Source of the DNA: an uncultured Lentisphaerota bacterium
Lineage (GTDB): Bacteria; Verrucomicrobiota; Kiritimatiellia; RFP12; UBA1067
Direction: 5' to 3'
Assembly: GCA_900320855.1 (NCBI GenBank)
Contig: ONTV01000005.1
Location: forward strand, 1-38,005
Length of the DNA: 38,005 nt
Shown: one piece after another, positions 3-26,336 of the stretch
How the letters are laid out: the number at the start of each line of letters is the position of its first letter
Position numbering within the stretch: position 1 is the first letter of the stretch
The notes under the pieces: model-generated
Databases searched by the model: none
Seen by the model: the letters and a program-made list of their open reading frames with translations, nothing else
What the model was told of the DNA's origin: nothing
Translations under genes and position numbers: made by a program

Positions 3-1013
3 AACATCGGTGCGGTCATGCATGCGGCGAAGAGCGACAGCCGTGCCAAGCTTGTGGCCTCGCCGATTATCATGACACTTGACAACAAGGAGGCGACGAT
101 TGAAGCGACCAAGATGCGTTACTTGCTAAAAGGATATACCTATTCAGGTTCGACTTACAACGGAAGTGCAGTGCCGGACTATGAACAGAAGGAAATTGGC
201 TTGACGGCGAAAATCACGCCTAAAATCAATCCGAACGGGACGGTCATGCTGACAATTGAGGAGGAGTTCTCCGCGTTGGGGGATAGCCAGACCATCCAAG
301 CGGCGACAGGAGGAACGTCAAACAACCAACAGGTTGTCAGCGGAATCAACGTCGAGACGACGGTCACACGCAAACTGTCAGCCGACATCACCGTCGAGAA
401 TCGTCAGACAGTTGTCTTGGGGGGACTTTCTCAGACTGAGTATTCGACGGTTGACAGTGGCATCCCGATTCTGAAGGATATCCCCTATATTGGACGCTAT
501 CTTTTCGGCTCGACGAAGGACGTTGAGACTCGGCAGGAACTTTTGATGTTCTTGACTCCTTATGTGCTCGACGATGCGGAGAGTGCGGTTGCGGAGGCGC
601 GGAGGCGCAAGTTGACATTGAGCGATGACAGACCGTGGGACGATCACGGTTGGAGCGCATCGCCATTGGCCGATGCGGTGTCTCTCAAGGAATTGCTGAA
701 GCGGCGTCAGCGTGAATGGGCGGCGCAGGACAAAGAGTATGAGGCCCAGTTGGAATTGGCAAAGAAAAACGAAAAGAGGGTCGAGGAATTGAAGGCGCGC
801 GCGGCAAAGGAAATGGCGTTGCGTGCGGCTGAGGCCAAGCGCTTGACGGATGCAATCAATGCGGTCGAGGAGAAGAAAGCTGAGGCGCGTGCTGGGGCTG
901 AGGTCAAGGTACGTGAAATGAACGCAGGACTTTTGCGGCAGTTGGAATCGGAATCCGAGGCGGCGGCCGAGGAGAAGAAGGCCGGCGCTGTCGAGAAGGC
1001 GAAGGGCGAGTGA
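3..1013 (+). CDS. gspD: Secretin (GspD/PilQ family), 3' part, with coiled-coil tail
   Basis: Outer-membrane secretin channel, C-terminal part only; the frame is open to the window's left edge. The S/beta-barrel region is recognisable from the segment LDNKEATI and from the signature VVLGGL followed by GIPILKDIPYIGRYLF and a LLMFLTPYVL end (about residues 135-187 counted from the ATG at 18). After it comes an unusual tail of roughly 110 residues rich in Lys, Glu, Ala and Arg, predicted by eye as one long coiled coil; most secretins end soon after the barrel. It belongs with the pseudopilin genes 33 kb downstream (33763-36863), as type II secretion or type IV pilus parts. Base composition is clearly less GC-rich, with many TTG codons, than every later gene. 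Identity as secretin is secure; GspD versus PilQ is not settled. Confidence 0.9.
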   Translation, partial: NIGAVMHAAKSDSRAKLVASPIIMTLDNKEATIEATKMRYLLKGYTYSGSTYNGSAVPDYEQKEIGLTAKITPKINPNGTVMLTIEEEFSALGDSQTIQAATGGTSNNQQVVSGINVETTVTRKLSADITVENRQTVVLGGLSQTEYSTVDSGIPILKDIPYIGRYLFGSTKDVETRQELLMFLTPYVLDDAESAVAEARRRKLTLSDDRPWDDHGWSASPLADAVSLKELLKRRQREWAAQDKEYEAQLELAKKNEKRVEELKARAAKEMALRAAEAKRLTDAINAVEEKKAEARAGAEVKVREMNAGLLRQLESESEAAAEEKKAGAVEKAKGE

Positions 1014-1290
1014 GGCCCGGCTTTGACGAGAGAGACTTGAGCGACGGGAGAGGCGAGAGAATGGGCTTTGACGAGAGAGACGAGAGGGGCTTGAGAGACA
1101 AGAGAGGTGGCTTTGACGCGAGTGACTTGGGCGACTTGAGGGGCGAGAGGGCTCAAGCCCCTCAAGCCTCTCTTGACCCTCGCGTCATTTCTCAAGCCGC
1201 TCGCGCCCCTCACGTCACTCGCGTCATTTCCAGAGTCTCTCGCGCCCCTCGCGTCTCTCACGTCGTCTTGAGCCTCATTTCCCCTTAACG
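1014..1290. repeat. Tandem-repeat region with 45-bp and 39-bp periods and reverse-complement-like halves
   Basis: The left half is purine-rich: GGCTTTGACGAGAGAGAC starts at 1019 and 1064 and a diverged copy starts at 1109, exactly 45 bp apart. The right half is pyrimidine-rich: CTCGCGTCATTTC at 1179 and 1218, and CTCGCGCCCCTC at 1200 and 1239, both 39 bp apart. Words of the left half recur inverted in the right: GAGGGGCTTGAG (1084) against CTCAAGCCCCTC (1152), and GCGAGTGAC (1118) against GTCACTCGC (1214). RNA from either strand could fold into a long imperfect hairpin. A GTG at 1010 overlapping the secretin stop opens a 92-codon frame in which the left half encodes three 15-residue repeats starting GFD; I do not regard this as a proven gene. 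Confidence 0.85.
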
Positions 1291-1300
1291 GAGCCTTGTC

Positions 1301-2254
1301 ATGAATCAAAAGAACATCTCTTTCATCGCCCTTGCGCTCGCCATCCTGGCGGCGGCAACTGCGGCGGTCGTCGTGAGCGTGAACCGGTCGTCCGAGGCGC
1401 AGGCGTGGGCTGAGGCCGAGGCGGCCGCCGCCGAAAAGGCGACGGCGCTCGCCAAGGCCGCGTCGAAGACGGCCGAAGCCGAGGCGTCGAAGGCCCGTGC
1501 CGCCGAGGCCGGCCTCGCGTCCGAGAAGGAGACGCGCGCGTCGAACGCAGCCGCCGCCGAGAAGGCGAAGGCCGAGACCGAAGTCGCGGCGGCGAAGCGC
1601 GCCCAGGCCGAGGAGCTGCGCCGGAAGGCCGAGGCCGACGCCGAGGCGGCGAAGGAGAACCGTCTCGCGGAGAAGCTGAAGGCTGAGGCGGCGGCCGCCG
1701 AGAAAGCGAAGGCCGTCGCCCTGCAGAAGGCCGAAGAGGCCAAGGCCGAGGCGGCCGCCGACCAGCTCGCGGCGGAGAAGCTCCGCTCCGAGAAGGTCAT
1801 CGCCGAGGCGAAGCTCCTCGAACTCCGCAAGATCGACTTCGAGACGGCCGAACGCGACCTGCGCGAATGGCGACAGGACCTTGAGGAGCGCGAGCGCGCG
1901 CTCACGCCGGAGAAGACGGTCGCTGACCTCGCCTGGGCGGGCGGCGTGGAGGACACGGTCATCGACGCCGAGGGGAACGTCCGCAAGCAGGCGAAGACGC
2001 CGTATCGGGCGGAGGACGACCGGACGCTGCCGCGCGCGACGCGGCAGCTGGCGCGCGTCGAGCGCGAGACGGCGGAGGCCGTCGCGCAGGAGGCCGCGCG
2101 GACGCGCGCGTCGGTCGTCGCCGCGCTGGAGCGGCTCTACGTCGCGGCGCTCAGGGACGACCGCGTCATCGACGCCGACTACTACCGCAAGGCGCTCAAG
2201 GCGCTCTACCCCGACTGGGAATTCAAGGGCGAGTCGGCGGCGCGCGACCGGTAG
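1301..2254 (+). CDS. TolA-like membrane-anchored Ala-rich coiled-coil protein, function unknown
   Basis: A 317-residue protein with one N-terminal membrane helix (about residues 7-27), then about 170 residues of almost pure Ala/Glu/Lys heptad-like sequence predicted to be a long coiled coil. A more normal C-terminal region (about 195-317) ends in a compact segment around LERLYVAALRDDRVID and YYRKALKALYPDWEF. The layout (TM anchor, long periplasmic helix, small C-terminal domain) resembles TolA or TonB-type spanning proteins, but I see no TolA domain III signature. GGAG at 1290-1293 lies 7 bases before the ATG. It follows the secretin gene, whose own tail is also coiled coil, so a role spanning the periplasm beside the secretin is possible but inferred. 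Confidence 0.7.
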   Translation: MNQKNISFIALALAILAAATAAVVVSVNRSSEAQAWAEAEAAAAEKATALAKAASKTAEAEASKARAAEAGLASEKETRASNAAAAEKAKAETEVAAAKRAQAEELRRKAEADAEAAKENRLAEKLKAEAAAAEKAKAVALQKAEEAKAEAAADQLAAEKLRSEKVIAEAKLLELRKIDFETAERDLREWRQDLEERERALTPEKTVADLAWAGGVEDTVIDAEGNVRKQAKTPYRAEDDRTLPRATRQLARVERETAEAVAQEAARTRASVVAALERLYVAALRDDRVIDADYYRKALKALYPDWEFKGESAARDR

Positions 2255-3972: not shown

Positions 3973-5298
3973 ATGCGGTTCCTCGTCCACACCTACGGCT
4001 GCCAGATGAACGTGCGCGACTCCGAGGCGGTCGCGGCGCTTCTCGTCGCGGCCGGCCACGAGGAGGTCGCGTCGGAGGACGCGGCCGACCTCGTCCTCAT
4101 CAACAGCTGCACCGTGCGCCAGAAGGCCGAGGAGAAGGCGATCGGCAAGGCGGGCAACCTCCTGGCGGCCGGCAAGGTCGTCGGCCTCATGGGGTGCGCG
4201 GTGAAGCGGCTGGGTGCGGACGTCTTCACGCGGCTGCCGAAGCTCCACTTCGCCGTCGGCCCGCGCCGGTTCGGGCTCATCCCGAAGATCGTCGCGGACG
4301 CGCGGTATCCGACGCTGGAGCTAGGCGACGACGAGGTGCCGGAGGGGCTGGACGCGCATCCGGACACGCGGCGCGCCGGCACGTTCGCGCGGGTCCAGAG
4401 CTACGTCACCGTCCTCCTCGGCTGCGACAACCGCTGCAGCTACTGCATCGTCCCGGACGTGCGCGGCCACGAGTATTCGCGTCCCGCGAAGGAGGTGATC
4501 GAGGAGGTGCGCTGCCTCGCCGCGCGCGGCGTGAAGGAGGTCTGCCTCCTCGGCCAGAGCGTCCTGCGCTACGGCATCCGCAACAAGGCGTGGGAGACGG
4601 CGGGCGGCGAGCCGTTCCCGCGCCTTCTGCGCGCGCTGCAGGAGATCGACGGCCTCGAACGCATCCGCTTCACGTCCGCCCATCCGAAGGGCTGCACGGA
4701 CGAGCTGCTTGCGGCCTACCGCGACTGCCCGAAGGTCTGCCGTCACCTGCATCTGCCGGTGCAGTCCGGCTCCGACCGCATCCTGGCGGAAATGGGACGG
4801 CACTACACGCGCGCGGAGTATCTCGACGCCGTGCGGCAGCTCCGCGCGTTCGATCCCGAATTCGCCGTCACGACGGACGTGATCGTCGGCTATCCGGGCG
4901 AGACGGAGGCGGACTTCGAGGCGACGCGCTCGCTCATGGAGGAAGCCGGCTTCGACAACGCCTTCGTCTTCAAGTACTCGCCGCGTCCCGGCACGCGCAG
5001 CGCGGCGTTGCCGGACGACGTGCCGACGGCCGAGAAGGAGCGCCGCAACCAGGTGCTTCTCGCCGACCAGGAGATTCGGGGCCAGCGCCGCAACGACGCG
5101 CTCGTCGGCACGGTGCGCGAGGTGATGGTCGAAGGCCCCTCGAAGCGCAACAAGGCGCGGCTCTCGGGGCGCGACTCGGGCAACCGCATCGTCGTCTGGG
5201 ACGCGCCGGACGGCGCGCGCCCGGAGATCGGCTCGACGGTGCGCGTGCGCATCGACGCGGCCCATCCGCAGATTCTCGTCGGCACGCGCGTCGCGTGA
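3973..5298 (+). CDS. miaB: tRNA-2-methylthio-N6-dimethylallyladenosine synthase (radical SAM methylthiotransferase)
   Basis: Adds the methylthio group to i6A37 of tRNAs reading UNN codons. The 441-residue product has three N-terminal cluster cysteines (C10 in YGCQMN, C46 in INSC, C75 in LMGC), the radical-SAM triad C151-C155-C158 (CDNRCSYC) and a C-terminal TRAM RNA-binding domain (about 375-441). HLHLPVQSGSDRIL and DVIVGYPGET are typical of MiaB. The ATG at 3973 is two bases after the pgi stop and puts the first cluster Cys at the usual place. I see no miaA in the window. RimO and MtaB are the alternatives, but the cysteine spacing and HLPVQSGS context favour MiaB. Confidence 0.93.
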   Translation: MRFLVHTYGCQMNVRDSEAVAALLVAAGHEEVASEDAADLVLINSCTVRQKAEEKAIGKAGNLLAAGKVVGLMGCAVKRLGADVFTRLPKLHFAVGPRRFGLIPKIVADARYPTLELGDDEVPEGLDAHPDTRRAGTFARVQSYVTVLLGCDNRCSYCIVPDVRGHEYSRPAKEVIEEVRCLAARGVKEVCLLGQSVLRYGIRNKAWETAGGEPFPRLLRALQEIDGLERIRFTSAHPKGCTDELLAAYRDCPKVCRHLHLPVQSGSDRILAEMGRHYTRAEYLDAVRQLRAFDPEFAVTTDVIVGYPGETEADFEATRSLMEEAGFDNAFVFKYSPRPGTRSAALPDDVPTAEKERRNQVLLADQEIRGQRRNDALVGTVREVMVEGPSKRNKARLSGRDSGNRIVVWDAPDGARPEIGSTVRVRIDAAHPQILVGTRVA

Positions 5299-5369: not shown

Positions 5370-7558
5370 CGGACGGTCGCGAGACGGTCGAGGGGACGAT
5401 CAAGTCCGTCGTCTACCACAACGACGAGAACGGGTACACCGTCCTCCACGTCGAGACGCCGAGCGAGTTCGAGCTCGCGCGCAACCCCGAGATCACGGTC
5501 GTCGGCAAGACGCAGGCCGTCTGGGAGGGCGAGGACGTCAAGGCCGAGGGCCAATGGGTGACGGACAAGGTGCATGGCCGCCAGTTCAAGGCCGACACGC
5601 TCACTTGCATCGCGCCGCGCTCGCTGAAGGGCGTCGAGCGCTATCTCGCCTCCGGCCTCATCAGGGGCGTCGGACCCGTCCTCGCCAAGCGCATCGTCGC
5701 GACGTTCGGCGAGGACACGATGCACGTGCTCCAGTACCAGTCGGCGCGTCTCGCGGAGGTGCCGAAGCTCGGCGCGGCGAAGGTGCGCCAGATCCGCGAA
5801 AGCTGGCACGCGAACGAGACGATGCGCGAGAACCTCATCTTCGGGCAGACCTACGGCATCTCCATCGCGAAGATGACGAAGATCGTCCGCAAGTACGGGC
5901 CGGACGCGATCGCCATCGTCAAGGCAGACCCCTACCGCCTCTGCCGCGACATCTGGGGCATCGGCTTCGCGACGGCCGACAAGATCGCGCTGTCCGTCGG
6001 CCTCCCGAAGGACTCGCCGCTGCGCGCGCGCGCCTCGGTGAGCTACACGCTGGAGACGGAGGCCGAGTCGGGCGGGCACTGCTGGACGTTCGAGAACGAC
6101 CTGCTCCTGCACGCGCACGAGCTCACGGAGATTCCGCTGGAGGTCCTGGCCGACGCCCTGCGCGCGGAGACCGAGGAAGGGCGGGTCGTCGCCGTCGCGG
6201 GCGCGACGCCCGACGCGCCGCGCAAAGTCTATCTCAAGTCGCTCTACTTCTCCGAGCGCGACGTCGCCGTGCGCGTGAAGGCGATTCTCGCTGCACCGCC
6301 CTCGTTCGCCGCGTTCGAGCCGGCGCGTGCGATCGCCTGGTGGCAGTCGCGCCAGCGCTTCGAGCTCGCCGAGCGCCAGCGCGAGGCGCTTGAGCACTCC
6401 CTCTCGTCGAAGTTCTCGATCATCACGGGCGGGCCGGGCGTCGGCAAGACGACGATCATCCGCGCGCTCGTCGAGATCTTCTCCGCGCGGCGGCTGAAGG
6501 TCGTCCTCGCCGCGCCGACGGGCCGCGCCGCGAAGCGGATGACGGAGTCGGTCGGCGCGGGCGCGCAGACGATCCACCGCCTGCTCAAGTGGAATCCCGT
6601 CACGAACCGCTTCACGTTCGACGCGGAGAATCCGCTCGAAGGGGACGTCTTCGTGTTCGACGAGACGTCGATGATCGACGTGCGGCTCGCGTGCGAGCTC
6701 CTGAAGGCGATTCCCGACGCGGCGACCGTCGTCTGGGTCGGCGATACGGACCAGCTGCCGTCCGTCGGGCCCGGCTCTGTCCTCGGCGACCTCATCAAGT
6801 CGCGCGCGCTGCCGGCGACGCGGCTCGACTTCATCTTCCGGCAGGACACCGCGGGCCTCATCGTCAAGAACGCCCACCACGTGAACGCGGGCGAGCCGCT
6901 GGAGGTCGCGCACGGCGACAGCGACTTCTATTTCGTGCGGTGCGAAGACCCGGAGCTCTGCCTCAAGCGGGCGATCGAGTTCATGACGACGCGCATCCCG
7001 CGCAAGTTCGGGATGGATCCCCTGCGCGACGTGCAGGTCCTGACGCCCATGCGGCGGAACGTCCTCGGAACGGACAACCTCAATGTCGAGCTGCAGAAGG
7101 CGCTCAACCCGACGGGCGACTCGCTCTCGCGCGGCGGCACGGTCTTCCGCGTCGGCGACCGCGTCATGCAGCTGCGGAACAACTACGACAAGGACGTCTT
7201 CAACGGCGACGTCGGCTTCGTGAAGTCGGTGAGCGCGTCGGACCGCTCGCTCGTCGTCCTCTTCGACGGCCGGCCGGTGAAGTACGACGCGGGCGACCTC
7301 GACGAGCTTGTCCTCGCCTACGCGATGACGATCCACAAGTCGCAGGGCAGCGAGTATCCGGCGGTCATCGTCCTCGTCCACACGCAGCACTACGTGATGC
7401 TCCAGCGCAACCTCCTCTACACGGCGATCACGCGCGGCAAGCGGCTCGTCCTGCTGGTCGGCGTGCCGTATGCGGTTGACCGGGCGATCCAGACGAACGC
7501 GGTGCGCGAGCGCCGCACGTCCCTCGCCGAGCGGCTGGCGGCCGAGCCCGCCGGATGA
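5366..7558 (+). CDS. recD2: RecD2-type ATP-dependent DNA helicase (SF1B)
   Basis: A 5'-3' DNA helicase acting without RecBC, of the Deinococcus/Bacillus RecD2 type. The 730-residue product begins with an OB-like N-terminal region (about 1-80) and a helix-hairpin-helix segment (LASGLIRGVGPVLAKRI, about 90-110). It then has Walker A GGPGVGKTT (about 354-362), Walker B with FDETSMID (about 430-437) and a UvrD-like C-terminal motif TIHKSQGSEYPAVIV (about 655). The GTG start at 5366 is chosen because the frame upstream only holds the promoter. No recB or recC is nearby, as expected for RecD2. Confidence 0.93.
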   Translation: MTDGRETVEGTIKSVVYHNDENGYTVLHVETPSEFELARNPEITVVGKTQAVWEGEDVKAEGQWVTDKVHGRQFKADTLTCIAPRSLKGVERYLASGLIRGVGPVLAKRIVATFGEDTMHVLQYQSARLAEVPKLGAAKVRQIRESWHANETMRENLIFGQTYGISIAKMTKIVRKYGPDAIAIVKADPYRLCRDIWGIGFATADKIALSVGLPKDSPLRARASVSYTLETEAESGGHCWTFENDLLLHAHELTEIPLEVLADALRAETEEGRVVAVAGATPDAPRKVYLKSLYFSERDVAVRVKAILAAPPSFAAFEPARAIAWWQSRQRFELAERQREALEHSLSSKFSIITGGPGVGKTTIIRALVEIFSARRLKVVLAAPTGRAAKRMTESVGAGAQTIHRLLKWNPVTNRFTFDAENPLEGDVFVFDETSMIDVRLACELLKAIPDAATVVWVGDTDQLPSVGPGSVLGDLIKSRALPATRLDFIFRQDTAGLIVKNAHHVNAGEPLEVAHGDSDFYFVRCEDPELCLKRAIEFMTTRIPRKFGMDPLRDVQVLTPMRRNVLGTDNLNVELQKALNPTGDSLSRGGTVFRVGDRVMQLRNNYDKDVFNGDVGFVKSVSASDRSLVVLFDGRPVKYDAGDLDELVLAYAMTIHKSQGSEYPAVIVLVHTQHYVMLQRNLLYTAITRGKRLVLLVGVPYAVDRAIQTNAVRERRTSLAERLAAEPAG

Positions 7559-15481: not shown

Positions 15482-16972
15482 ATGAGCGAAGAGAACGGAA
15501 ACATCCTTGACCTCGGGTCGTTCGACTTCACGCCCGCCTGGGCGAAGACGGACGCCAAGGTCAACGTCGGCAAGATCCGTCCCGAAGGGGACCGTGGCAC
15601 GGAACGCGGGGACAGGCCCCGCAAGCCGTTTGGCGACCGCAAGCCGTTTGGGGACGGACGGCGTCCGCAGGGCGGCCGGAAGCCGTTTGGGCCGCGCAAG
15701 CCGTTCGGCGACCGTCCGCGCTTCGAGGAACGTCCGCGTCCGCTCGCCTGCGAGGTGAAGGTCCTGCCTGAGACGAAGGCGCTCGGCACGATCATCCGCA
15801 AGCTCCAGGGCGATGCGCACGCCTACAAGCTCAAGGATCTCGCGTACTTTTTCCTCGACAATCCGCAGTCGGTTCTCCTGAAGATCACGCCCAAGGCACC
15901 CGAATCCTCCAACGCCCAAGCCGCCGCAACCTTCTTCCAGTGCAAGGCCTGCGGGTTTGCCTCGACGCGCGAGGAGGACGTGCTCGCGCATGCGCTCGCG
16001 GCGCATCTCGGCGACTACTACGACGCGAAGGAGATCGAGTGCGAGCCGCCGAAGGGCAACTTCAACTGCGTCGCGAAGTGCGGGCTCTCGGGCGTTCTCC
16101 TCGGGCCGCCGAACATCCACGAGTTCAACGCGACCGTCCGCGAGATGGTGCGCACGCGCTATCCGGAGATGAGCGAGGAGCAGTATCGCGCGCACATCGA
16201 GATGGTGCGTGACGCGGACGCGATCGAGGAATGGCGCAAGGGCGCGACGAAGAAGACCGTCTTCTTCGCGAAGGGACAGGCCGAGGTCGAGGGCGCGGCG
16301 CAGCTGACGCGCGAACAGGCCGAGGGCGAATTCCGCCGCACGATCCTGCCGTCGCTGCTGGAGCGTCCGAAGAGCCTCATGATCACGGCGGACGTCGCGC
16401 AGAAGTCGCCGGTGAAGCCGCTCGTCTGGGCGGTCAACGACGCGATCCAGGCCGAGCGGCGCGCGCCGGCGGCGATGTGCTTTGCGTTGCGCGGCGCGTT
16501 CCACCACCGCAAGCTCCATTTCTTCCGCGCGAACGATGCGCGCGGCCCGGAGTTCGTGACGGGCGTCGAGTACAAGCCGTTCGACGCGGCGCACGCGATT
16601 CCGGAGCTGGCCCGCGCGGCGACTTTCGTCGCCGAGAACCCCTGCTGCGACAAGTCCGAGTTCCCGGCGGACGACCCGGAGTTCGAGCAACACCTGAACT
16701 GGCTCGTCACGACGGGCCACGTCGTCGCGTTCACGAACGGCGTCTTCTCGGCCGTCGAGAAGTTCCCGAAGTACGGGCCGCAGTGGAAGAAGCGGGGGAT
16801 GAAGGGGAAAAAGGTGGAGGTTGAAGGTGGAGGTGGAGAGCGGAAGGAAGAGACTCCTTGCTCCACCTCGACCTCGAAGCTCGAGCCTGGTGAGAAGGGA
16901 CTCGAGGCTGGTGAGAAAGTTGTGAAAGAAGAAGAGGTGAAGGATGAGACTGCCCCTGTCGTGGCTGAATGA
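15482..16972 (+). CDS. Conserved protein with basic repeat N-terminus and a C2H2 zinc finger, function unknown
   Basis: A 496-residue protein I cannot name. Residues 45-85 are a basic low-complexity stretch with repeated KPFGD/KPFGPR units, of the kind found on RNA-binding proteins. At about 154-175 lies a classical C2H2 pattern, C-x2-C-x12-H-x4-H (CKACGF to HALAAH), rare in bacteria; a Cys pair (CVAKC) follows near 200. The rest is well-composed globular sequence with conserved-looking blocks (FHHRKLHFFRAND, WLVTTGHVVAFTNGVFS). The last 55 residues are low-complexity Gly/Glu/Lys with a 7-residue repeat. Nucleic-acid binding is inferred from the basic repeats and the finger. It overlaps pheT by 29 bases, suggesting a translation-linked role. 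The 13-mer repeat at 15608 encodes part of the basic region. Confidence 0.75.
   Translation: MSEENGNILDLGSFDFTPAWAKTDAKVNVGKIRPEGDRGTERGDRPRKPFGDRKPFGDGRRPQGGRKPFGPRKPFGDRPRFEERPRPLACEVKVLPETKALGTIIRKLQGDAHAYKLKDLAYFFLDNPQSVLLKITPKAPESSNAQAAATFFQCKACGFASTREEDVLAHALAAHLGDYYDAKEIECEPPKGNFNCVAKCGLSGVLLGPPNIHEFNATVREMVRTRYPEMSEEQYRAHIEMVRDADAIEEWRKGATKKTVFFAKGQAEVEGAAQLTREQAEGEFRRTILPSLLERPKSLMITADVAQKSPVKPLVWAVNDAIQAERRAPAAMCFALRGAFHHRKLHFFRANDARGPEFVTGVEYKPFDAAHAIPELARAATFVAENPCCDKSEFPADDPEFEQHLNWLVTTGHVVAFTNGVFSAVEKFPKYGPQWKKRGMKGKKVEVEGGGGERKEETPCSTSTSKLEPGEKGLEAGEKVVKEEEVKDETAPVVAE
15608..15620 (+). repeat. GGGGACAGGCCCC 13-mer, in the zinc-finger gene
   Basis: Exact copy, here read in another frame (GDRPR) than in tsaB and folC, which argues against a shared protein motif as its cause. 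Confidence 0.75.
16811..16920. repeat. Low-complexity repeats and hairpin at the 3' end of the zinc-finger gene
   Basis: Purine-rich AGGTGGAGGT-type units (16812-16838) face a pyrimidine-rich stretch beginning CTCCACCTC (16861-16869), exactly complementary to GAGGTGGAG at 16830-16838. A 21-bp direct repeat then starts at 16880 and 16901 (CTCGAGSCTGGTGAGAA) and encodes LEPGEKG/LEAGEKV. Confidence 0.75.
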
Positions 16973-24336: not shown

Positions 24337-24412
24337 AAGAGAGCCGGCCTTATAGCCTTGAAATGACGCCGGCCCGATGACTTGAAATCAAGCGGCCCGA
24401 TAACCTTGAAAT
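24327..24412 (+). repeat. CTTGAAAT tandem array, four units
   Basis: CTTGAAAT at 24327, 24357, 24381 and 24405 (spacings 30, 24, 24). The first and last units continue as GAAAGAGA, and the middle ones end in GGCCCGAT. ATGAAAGAGA is thus present twice, at 24333 (overlapping the previous stop) and at 24411 (a possible start of the next gene). Confidence 0.85.
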
Positions 24413-24425
24413 GAAAGAGAACGCG

Positions 24426-25457
24426 ATGAGGCTCAACGAACTCGAAAAGCTGGCGAAGCGGCGGCGTCTCGACGTCGTCCTCGTTTGCGCAGAACCCAAC
24501 ATCCTTGCCTTGACGGGCATTCGGTGCGACAATGCCGTTCTGGTGGGGAAAGTGGGAAGGTGGGAAAGTGGGAAGGTGGGAAGGTGCCTCCACACCGACT
24601 TTCGCTATGTGCCGATGGTGCATCGCGTCGCGCCGGACCTCGATTGCCGCGACCTCAAGGAACTGAAGATCCGGGGGCGCCGCATCGGCTACGAGTCGTC
24701 GATTTCGCATGCGCAGTTCCTCAAGTTCCAGAAGCTCGCGCCGCGCGGCGCGACGTTCGTCGACGTCGCGGACGACCTTCTTGCGATTCGCGCCGTGAAG
24801 ACGCCGGACGAGATCGCGAAGATCCGCGCGGCGGAAGCGCTTACCTGCAAAATCTGGCGCACGGCGTCCGCGCGCTTCCGCGCCGGTATGACGGAGCGCG
24901 ACATGGCGCGGATCATCCAGAAGCTGATGATCGAGAAGGGCGAGGGCGAGGCGTTCGGGACAATCGTCTGCGTCGGGAAGAACGCCGCCGAATGCCATCA
25001 TGAGCCGGACGAAACGGTCTGGAACGGACGCGAGCCCGTGCTCGTGGACATGGGCGTGCGCCTCGGCGGCGTCTGCGGCGACCTGACGCGCAACCTCGTC
25101 CCCGGCCTCCAAACCTCCAAACTTTACCGCCAGGTCTATGCGCTCGTCGCGGAGGCGAATCGTGCGGCGATTGCGGCGGCGAAGCCGGGGATGACGGGAA
25201 AGGCGCTGGACAAGGTCGCGCGCGACGTCATCGCGAAGGGCGGCTTCGGGAAGTGCTTCGGTCACTCGCTGGGGCATGGCGTCGGCTACGAGATCCACGA
25301 GGCGCCCGTCGCCTCGCCCAGGAGCGACACGGTCTTGAAGCCGGGGATGTGCGTGACGATCGAGCCGGGCATCTACCTGGAAGGCAACCTCGGCGTCCGC
25401 ATCGAGGATCTCGTCCTCATCACGGAAACCGGCTGCGAAGTCCTGTCCAAGCCGTAG
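24426..25457 (+). CDS. M24-family aminopeptidase (Xaa-Pro peptidase type)
   Basis: Cytoplasmic dimetal peptidase cleaving N-terminal residues, probably before Pro. About 343 residues: a small N-terminal creatinase-like domain (1-110), then the pita-bread fold with the metal ligands visible (Asp in VDMGVRLGG, Asp in CGDLTRN, His in GHSLGHGVGYEIHEAP, Glu in TIEPGIY, Glu in RIEDLVLIT) and a His pair in ECHHEP. ATG 24426 is favoured (AAAGAGA 5 bases upstream); ATG 24411 lies in the repeat array and adds five residues. Two repeat tracts sit in the gene: an 8-bp array at 24543-24582 encoding GKVGRWESGKVGR in the N-terminal domain, and two CCTCCAAA units at 25106-25121 after the second metal Asp. 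Both look like in-frame insertions in surface loops. Confidence 0.88.
   Translation: MRLNELEKLAKRRRLDVVLVCAEPNILALTGIRCDNAVLVGKVGRWESGKVGRCLHTDFRYVPMVHRVAPDLDCRDLKELKIRGRRIGYESSISHAQFLKFQKLAPRGATFVDVADDLLAIRAVKTPDEIAKIRAAEALTCKIWRTASARFRAGMTERDMARIIQKLMIEKGEGEAFGTIVCVGKNAAECHHEPDETVWNGREPVLVDMGVRLGGVCGDLTRNLVPGLQTSKLYRQVYALVAEANRAAIAAAKPGMTGKALDKVARDVIAKGGFGKCFGHSLGHGVGYEIHEAPVASPRSDTVLKPGMCVTIEPGIYLEGNLGVRIEDLVLITETGCEVLSKP
24543..24582 (+). repeat. (RGTGGGAA)n octamer array inside the M24 peptidase gene
   Basis: Four exact 8-bp units (24551-24582) plus a degenerate one before them, alternating AGTGGGAA and GGTGGGAA. Three units equal eight codons, so the protein repeats GKVGRWES. It stays in frame. 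Confidence 0.9.
25106..25121 (+). repeat. Two CCTCCAAA octamers inside the M24 peptidase gene
   Basis: Direct 8-bp pair, the same octamer family as the longer array in kdsB 950 bases downstream. Confidence 0.7.
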
Positions 25458-25511: not shown

Positions 25512-26336
25512 ATGAAGACATATGGAATCATTCCGAGCCGGTTCGGTTCGAGCCGCTTTCCCGGCAAGCCGCTCGCGAACCTCGCGGGCAAACCCCTCGT
25601 CGCGTGGGTCGTCGAGGCGGTGAAGAAGGCGAAGGGCCTGGACGCCGTTGTGGTCGCGACGGACGACGAACGCATCGTGAAGGCCGTCGAGGCGTGCGGC
25701 GGCATCGCCGTCCTGACGCCGAGCGACCTGCCGAGCGGCACGGATCGCATCGCCTGCGCCGCGCGCCGCTATCTGGGGGGTGACTTCGGCGACGACGACA
25801 TTCTCGTGAACGTCCAGGGCGACGAGCCGCTGATCGATCCCGCGCTCGTCGAGGCGCTCGCGGCGAAGCTGAAGGACGACGCTCGTTGGTCGATGGCGAC
25901 GGCCGTCACGCCGATCCGCTGCGCGGCGGACTTCGCGGCGAGGACGGTCGTGAAGGTCGTCCTCGACCGCGACGACGGCGCGCTCTACTTCTCCCGCGCG
26001 CCGATTCCCTGCGACCGCGACCACACCCCGACGTTCCAAACGCCCGCCCCCCCAAACTCCCAAACCTCCAAACTCCCAAACCTCCAAACTCCCAAACCTT
26101 CGAACTCCCTCTACGTCCGCCACCTCGGCATCTACGCCTATCGCGGCGCGTTCCTGAAGCGGTACATCGCCGAGCCGCCGTGCGAACTTGAGAAGACGGA
26201 GAAGCTGGAGCAGCTTCGGGCGCTTTGGATGGGTGCGAAGATCGCGGTCGTGCGGACGGACGACGAGGGCGTGGGCGTCGACACGCCCGAGGACGCCGCG
26301 CGCGTCGAACAGCTGCTCCTTGCGCGACATGCCTGA
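25512..26336 (+). CDS. kdsB: 3-deoxy-manno-octulosonate cytidylyltransferase (CMP-KDO synthetase)
   Basis: Activates KDO with CTP for the inner core of LPS, so the organism makes an LPS-type outer membrane. 274 residues, about 25 more than usual. The nucleotide-binding start IIPSRFGSSRFPGKPL, VVVATDD, the LPSGTDRIA loop, VNVQGDEPLID, LYFSRAPIP, RHLGIYAYR and GVDTPEDAARVE are all in place. The extra residues form one insert between CDRDH and YVRHLGIYAYR, encoded by the 8-bp array at 26052-26099 and its flank (Pro/Ser/Thr/Gln/Asn-rich). In the family this position is a variable surface loop, so activity is probably kept. Its stop lies inside azlC's first codons. Confidence 0.95.
   Translation: MKTYGIIPSRFGSSRFPGKPLANLAGKPLVAWVVEAVKKAKGLDAVVVATDDERIVKAVEACGGIAVLTPSDLPSGTDRIACAARRYLGGDFGDDDILVNVQGDEPLIDPALVEALAAKLKDDARWSMATAVTPIRCAADFAARTVVKVVLDRDDGALYFSRAPIPCDRDHTPTFQTPAPPNSQTSKLPNLQTPKPSNSLYVRHLGIYAYRGAFLKRYIAEPPCELEKTEKLEQLRALWMGAKIAVVRTDDEGVGVDTPEDAARVEQLLLARHA
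26052..26099 (+). repeat. (CCAAACYY)6 octamer array inside kdsB
   Basis: Six 8-bp units alternating CCAAACTC and CCAAACCT, 48 bases, exactly 16 codons. Flanked by degenerate units on both sides. Confidence 0.9.

Follow-up and report, generated by a model that had tools for sequence, protein, structure and literature searches.

Between a secretin gene and a gene for a coiled-coil protein on the same strand (secretin stop 1013, coiled-coil start 1301) lies a repeat region with a purine-rich and a pyrimidine-rich half. The question raised by this locus is what kind of DNA the region represents, and whether it belongs to this place alone. The window analysed here (the whole stretch of DNA, 38,005 nucleotides) is an entire contig, C62. 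A search with its secretin gave as nearest relative, at 54% identity, that of a Kiritimatiellia MAG obtained from horse faeces, and genes similar to the coiled-coil gene, with C-terminal YPDWE/K, occur near the secretin in relatives. A scan of the window for tRNA and tmRNA found none, and there is no S23/IVP ORF within 1014-1300. The features discussed are collected in Table 1.

Table 1. Location of the genes, arrays and predicted structures discussed in the text
Feature	Location	Strand	Basis or remark
Secretin gene, 3' part	3..1013	+	PF00263, E 4.7e-39; contig begins within the gene
Open frame, 92 codons, GTG start overlapping secretin stop	1010..1288	+	Judged a by-product of the words
Purine arm: GRCNNGAGN words, TTT-containing spacers each five words (45-bp super-unit)	1019..1149	+	Repeat analysis
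Predicted long hairpin, 255 nt	1019..1273	+	RNA folding, -133 kcal/mol
Pyrimidine arm: words inverted (NCTCNNGYC), three 39-bp super-units	1152..1264	+	Repeat analysis
Coiled-coil gene, 317 aa, 3' of array	1301..2254	+	Without Pfam family
Array of 8-nt word GGGAANGT within Xaa-Pro peptidase-like gene (24411-25457)	24546..24586	+	
Array of 8-nt word CCAAACNN within kdsB, in frame	26035..26109	+	18-residue gap-insert versus PDB 3jtj
carB, nested F2(F1) palindrome of ~78 codons plus smaller F2 insert, all in frame	G000:C66 (L123) 6538-6995		
IVP gene between inverted F2 arrays	G000:C64 (L241) 1126-1800		

The words of the array

The unit of the array is a degenerate 9-bp word, GRCNNGAGN (family F1). 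Split into nines, the purine half reads GACGAGAGA, GACTTGAGC, GACGGGAGA, GGCGAGAGA and so on, so that 45 bp corresponds to five words and 39 bp to four words plus three. The original prediction had reported an exact 45-bp periodicity. In the purine half (period 45, 2.9 copies, 75% inter-copy matches) the spacing is indeed exact (0% indels), but the copies are not identical (80-85% identity to the first) and the true unit is the 9-bp word. The 39-bp periodicity of the pyrimidine half was recovered as three units, the second and third of which are 79% and 62% identical to the first. Inversion of shared words between the halves was likewise borne out, positions 1114-1149 and 1152-1187 being 75% complementary and positions 1074-1095 and 1152-1173 being 86% complementary. 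Because the arms share a word type but differ in word order, the array is not a recent perfect palindrome. A CRISPR reading was ruled out, as the words are contiguous, with no unique spacers.

Like the intervening sequences (IVS) of 23S rRNA, the array has terminal inverted arms able to form a stem. The strong transcript fold that had been anticipated was obtained for RNA from 1000-1300 (-153.9 kcal/mol; none of 100 dinucleotide shuffles as good), with a z-score of -6.5 that partly reflects the repeats, which shuffling destroys. An effect of the predicted hairpin on the transcript is plausible, and it may separate expression of the two genes, as had been suggested.

The GTG overlapping the secretin stop opens a frame with three GFD repeats (GFDERDLSDGRGERM / GFDERDERGLRDKRG / GFDASDLGDLRGERA), as had been described. 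In the purine arm this frame reads the word as GRC-NNG-AGN, where only TA at NN gives a stop; the pyrimidine arm is read as CNN-GYC-NCT, where no stop is possible. As the word leaves almost no possible stop in register, the openness of all 92 codons would be automatic, forced by the words, and would give no evidence of translation.

Arrays elsewhere in the genome and at the secretin of relatives

The region had been explained as an old duplication-inversion private to this locus. This does not hold, since dozens of loci carry these words, in many cases as inverted pairs, and F1 is also present at the secretin loci of sibling species. A pattern of two F1 words plus GRC had 107 matches in the bacterium's own genome (52 and 55 by strand) versus nine for the reversed pattern. 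The proposed search of the genome with the repeat, run with the array, gave 57 matches (self-matches included) and revealed a dispersal that, like the 9-bp unit, had previously been missed. A second family, F2, with the 8-bp word GANNATTC, had 249 matches in the same genome versus 0 for the control. A tandem-repeat scan of ~394 kb (20 stretches and the window) disclosed further families of 7-9-nt words, for example CCAAACNN.

Among 187 F1 units, bases are nearly free at the two middle positions and at the last one (0.16, 0.06 and 0.15 bits), and the high bits at the fixed positions stem in part from the pattern used for the search. The F1 clusters of the 394-kb sample comprised nine purine-first pairs, two pyrimidine-first pairs and nine clusters of single orientation; clusters with both orientations were thus purine-first in 9/11 cases for F1, and in 7/7 for F2. 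As dozens of copies exist, the window array is ordinary as a local feature; its interest lies in the general connection of IVP genes with word arrays to which it points. A 35-bp tandem array of telomere-like appearance (GAACTAGAAACCCTAACC..) was also seen at positions 4066-4171 of another stretch (L107).

Some arrays of this genome sit in frame inside conserved genes. The ORF picker used for a census of coding and intergenic arrays was crude, overcalling coding (96% of the sample) and picking a wrong-strand ORF in the window, so host genes were taken only from those checked with HMMs. Hosts confirmed with NCBIfam are carB, uvrA, mutL, priA, kdsB and HydF, together with the genes for a glycogen-debranching enzyme, an Xaa-Pro peptidase and V-type ATPase subunit A. 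One of ten scanned array-bearing proteins (L124:2140-3027) had no NCBIfam match, and hisH and RNase D are candidate hosts from the reading of their frames. Compared with PDB 1bxr, CarB has an insert of ~78 residues, placed between E. coli positions 553 and 556 and composed of an F1 hairpin nested within F2 arrays. With so few stops possible in the words, genes would be able to tolerate such inserts. Arrays in frame within carB, kdsB, uvrA and other genes would constitute a clear bacterial case of repeat DNA giving rise to protein sequence.

An orthologous secretin was present in 58/58 genomes searched, with best matches of differing quality, and three F1 words in a row were found in six of the 58, the bacterium's own genome among them. 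In three sibling species, F1 matches on the contig of the secretin and at most ~3.2 kb away from it numbered 8/10 (G006), 6/8 (G004) and 9/16 (G008). In G004 and G006 the order is secretin, F1 array, a gene for an IVP-like/zinc-ribbon protein (IVP-zinc), F1 array and coiled-coil gene. In G008 it is secretin, F1, coiled-coil gene, F1, IVP-zinc gene, F1 and a ychF-like gene. The arrays to the left and right of the IVP-zinc gene are 93% identical over 120 nt in G006, 96% over 95 nt in G004 and 83% over 151 nt in G008. Such paired arrays resemble long terminal repeats, and if the two recombined, a solo array like that of the window would remain.

The IVP-zinc product matches the 23S_rRNA_IVP four-helix bundle (PF05635; E 5.7e-5, 23.7 bits versus a cut-off of 33.8) and a topoisomerase zinc ribbon (E 6.7e-5, below the curated cut-off). 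IVP-zinc proteins were found in 37/58 genomes, and a search for an IVP-zinc gene of F1 type in the window's own assembly (2.41 Mb, 217 contigs, 87% complete) gave 0 matches. The comparison of related loci thus agreed with the original prediction in part, F1 repeats being at the site in G004, G006 and G008 but this word being absent there in other relatives; none of six other secretin junctions inspected carried F1. Directly 3' of the secretin of G027 (L191, ~1440-1600) lies a hairpin of a different 8-nt word (AATTATGT / CCATAATT), and other repeats occupy the junction of secretin and coiled-coil genes in G047 and G038.

IVP genes and their inverted arms

The PF05635 family had matches in 11 of 12 genomes (the own genome, ten genus relatives and G048), in 160/240 genomes of the phylum Verrucomicrobiota and in 49/151 of the order Lysobacterales. 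It was also present in 39 plasmid records, mostly from Nostocales, and had no match in phage records. A PDB search with an IVP protein of the phylum matched 2gsc (XCC0516) and 2rld.

Against a dinucleotide-shuffle null (p < 0.05), inverted arms were detected at 14/19 IVP loci of the genus and G048, 28/30 of the phylum, 27/30 of Lysobacterales and 12 of the 16 plasmid loci inspected (from 39 records). This amounts to 81/95 loci, which are the best-scoring ones, at most 30 per search, and lean towards intact genes. Five of the 19 loci in the genus set failed, and in the bacterium's own genome two of three IVP genes (L233 and L251) have no inverted arms by this test. One run over IVP loci used 47 of 49. 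Pairing mismatched left and right flanks left 6/30 phylum loci at p < 0.01, a control that suffers from words in common and from a pair of loci that are almost identical; the shuffle null and off-gene positions were added for this reason. At off-gene positions of the same loci (29 and 26 of the two sets of 30), 3/58 and 2/52, together 5/110, passed, while the IVP positions re-tested beside them passed in 28/29 and 24/26 cases (52/55).

In comparison with 600 random windows of the same genome, 13/18 over-cut-off IVP genes scored above all or nearly all windows (18 of 19 loci used, one flank being too short). None of 11 weaker genes of the IVP-zinc subtype did so, their flanks having been placed too close to the profile match; with flanks set by ORF, 7/11 have arms (inverted, direct or both; shuffle p < 0.05). 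Arm words are 7-9 nt long overall, with a period of mostly 7. IVP genes of Lysobacterales have GGGATTC and GGGAATC words at their flanks (an assignment at order level, with no claim to Xanthomonas), and those on Nostocales plasmids have AGGGAAC, TAGGGAG and GGTGACA.

Several of these loci have features of their own. The left F2 array of the IVP gene on C64 reaches the start of a gene with a prepilin-leader-like AFTLVELLVV. Word-armed IVP genes occur inside CRISPR-cas operons of cyanobacterial plasmids (cas6/IVP/cas4 and cas10/IVP/cmr3; L306, L317 and L318), and on Nostoc edaphicum plasmid pNe_5 an IVP gene lies on the opposite strand between ribonucleotide reductase subunit genes (L307). A Deltaproteobacteria MAG (G288, L322-L328) has seven IVP copies, each with internal stops, and heptamer-like words near those inspected.

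The words follow the protein. Sharing of arm 6-mers rises with IVP protein identity (Mantel r 0.218, permutation p 0.0005; 93/95 loci), and within groups words were shared in 62% of 63 pairs with at least 60% identity versus 13-17% below. This link fits inheritance of gene and arms as a unit as well as specific recognition. For IVP-zinc, proteins 80-100% identical to that of G006 (G004, G006 and G008) have arms of GACNNGAGN, which is also the word of the window array. Those 71-74% identical have GACNNGA-like 7-mers, those 59-70% identical GACNNGCGG-like words and those 47-51% identical GGACNCA-like words. These words were read by eye and not every locus shows both sides: among the flanks inspected, no array was found on the left in G009 and G046 or on the right in G027.

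Solo words of a single element can also be amplified in its own genome. Words of the only F2-flanked IVP gene (on C64) occur at 246 per 100 kb versus 13 in samples of ten other genomes (19-fold), and words of one element each at 339 versus 30 per 100 kb in G030 and 96 versus 10 in G048. As strong over-representation in their own genome was found for only three of the 14 IVP word sets that could be tested (five of 19 loci have no shared words) and not for most others, no claim is made that every IVP element amplifies its words.

A candidate element and its likely relatives

The window feature is probably a solo (gene-less) arm or copy of a dispersed, IVP-type palindromic word-array element of family F1. 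Complete elements would carry a 23S_rRNA_IVP (S23) four-helix-bundle gene beside or between their arms; the complete F1 form would be that of the siblings, with arrays bracketing the IVP-zinc gene at the secretin (G004 and G006) or after the coiled-coil gene (G008). The data show the anatomy of the arrays, their dispersal, the bracketing of IVP genes and the tie of words to protein; mobility is inferred, for an array whose ends are ill-defined. Sections of PMC4990558 describe X. campestris S23p as a homopentamer built from four-helix bundles. An IVP protein with such a five-fold ring may recognise the words in DNA or RNA, and the ring could hold successive words and protect or copy the arms, which would then spread in trans, either via DNA or via RNA. 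We know of no catalytic activity of IVP proteins. The window copy, for which an autonomous partner is assumed, would be one whose gene was lost or that was gene-less from the start. In the transcript its stem is probably cut by RNase III, as published for the Coxiella IVS, and the secretin would thereby be uncoupled from the downstream gene as a side effect.

Alternatively, the array may serve mainly as a structural or regulatory part of the mRNA, its long stem terminating or processing the transcript between the genes, with dispersal and the IVP link secondary. The very stable predicted stem (z -6.5), the position between same-strand genes, the equally intercistronic place of the cas6/IVP/cas4 and cas10/IVP/cmr3 plasmid elements and the different hairpin at the same place in G027 would all suit this account. 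However, it appears unlikely given that related arrays lie in frame inside genes, a position in which termination or cleavage would do harm, that most inspected secretin-coiled-coil junctions of relatives lack F1, and that a scan of the window at the Rfam gathering threshold matched no RNA family.

Word number and order vary within arrays, and the arms share words but not order, as plain tandem growth by replication slippage and strand switching might produce with neither mobile element nor protein partner; slippage is also the guess published for heptamer repeats in sections of PMC4692102. Such growth does not predict inverted pairing, the IVP association or words that follow the protein, and it is rather improbable as the source of a word that recurs at dozens of unlinked sites and keeps its register across three positions that are nearly free.

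REP/REPIN sequences with RAYT are dispersed hairpins with autonomous (gene-carrying) and solo forms. The REPIN-like logic of dispersed palindromes in both forms, and one Y1_Tnp match in the bacterium's own genome (C54, E 3.8e-5), could point to hairpins moved by a Y1 (IS200-type) transposase. This is very improbable, however, as word pairs of F1, F2 and F3 are all absent from the 2.15-kb locus of the Y1_Tnp match and the gene recurrent beside arrays is IVP-like, not Y1. The arrays also differ from REP/REPIN in their protein family and in their much longer word-array arms. Translation of a 92-aa repeat peptide from the GTG within the secretin stop codon can hardly be expected, since the frame is open and in register with the words but open by their construction, and no examined relative has a matching peptide of its own at the site.

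The palindromic word-array element tied to IVP genes can also be set beside other known repeats. Rickettsia palindromic elements are palindromes inserted in frame in protein genes and between genes. In-frame coding insertion is shared by the family described here (carB, uvrA, mutL, priA and others), not by the intergenic copy of the window; in contrast to the Rickettsia elements, the arrays consist of 8-9-nt words of several families and are tied to IVP genes. Cyanobacterial STRR sequences are degenerate, dispersed, purine-rich 7-nt words. The heptamers of Xanthomonas (GGGAATC) and Nostoc (GGGGA(C/T)T) are described in sections of PMC4692102 as degenerate and dispersed, with no function assigned, and 70 cases of inverted pairs are given for Xcc. 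They resemble the present arrays in being degenerate purine-rich words, dispersed and often in inverted pairs, but differ from F1 in their unit (7 nt versus 9 nt) and in being reported, in those sections, as mainly non-coding. The parts of that paper covered contain no mention of IVP, and a term search of the accessible text on Beggiatoaceae TAACTGA repeats (PMC4679880) found no S23, IVP or four helix.

The IVS of 23S rRNA (Leptospira and Coxiella), which have been called selfish, share with the arrays an inverted stem, an IVP/S23 gene in the complete form and degenerate tandem repeats beside the ORF. In Coxiella, tandem heptamers GACAGAT/GACAGAA precede the S23p ORF and the IVS is excised by RNase III, according to sections of PMC4990558. 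Unlike these IVS, the window array is outside 23S rRNA, between protein genes, has 9-bp words and lacks an ORF, and F1 is dispersed in tens of copies, some inside protein genes. Coding palindromes of Nematomorpha mitochondria, from what is available of PMC6649704, are also long inverted repeats inside coding genes, but with perfect arms, in animal mitochondria and with no IVP gene known.

Related repeats bracketing IVP genes in many bacteria suggest a little-known kind of spreading DNA. More tentatively, palindromic elements whose arms reiterate an element-specific 7-9-nt word may form a class found across bacteria, with IVP/S23 as its proteins. The rRNA IVS, the cyanobacterial and Xanthomonas heptamers and the Kiritimatiellia arrays would then be forms of one class whose solo arms spread in trans and even enter coding sequence, there to be translated as parts of proteins. 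This would join two old puzzles, the role of the small IVP/S23 protein and the origin of dispersed heptamer-type repeats. Apart from the Coxiella IVS heptamers, no report linking IVP genes to word arrays was found in open-licence PMC literature.

Two further repeats were observed in the window. An 18-bp tandem repeat at 15619-15714 (five copies) is in coding frame (KPFGDR-like), and a 24-bp repeat at 24342-24412 (CTTGAAATGAAAGAG.. / GCCGGCCCGAT) lies directly 5' of the peptidase gene.
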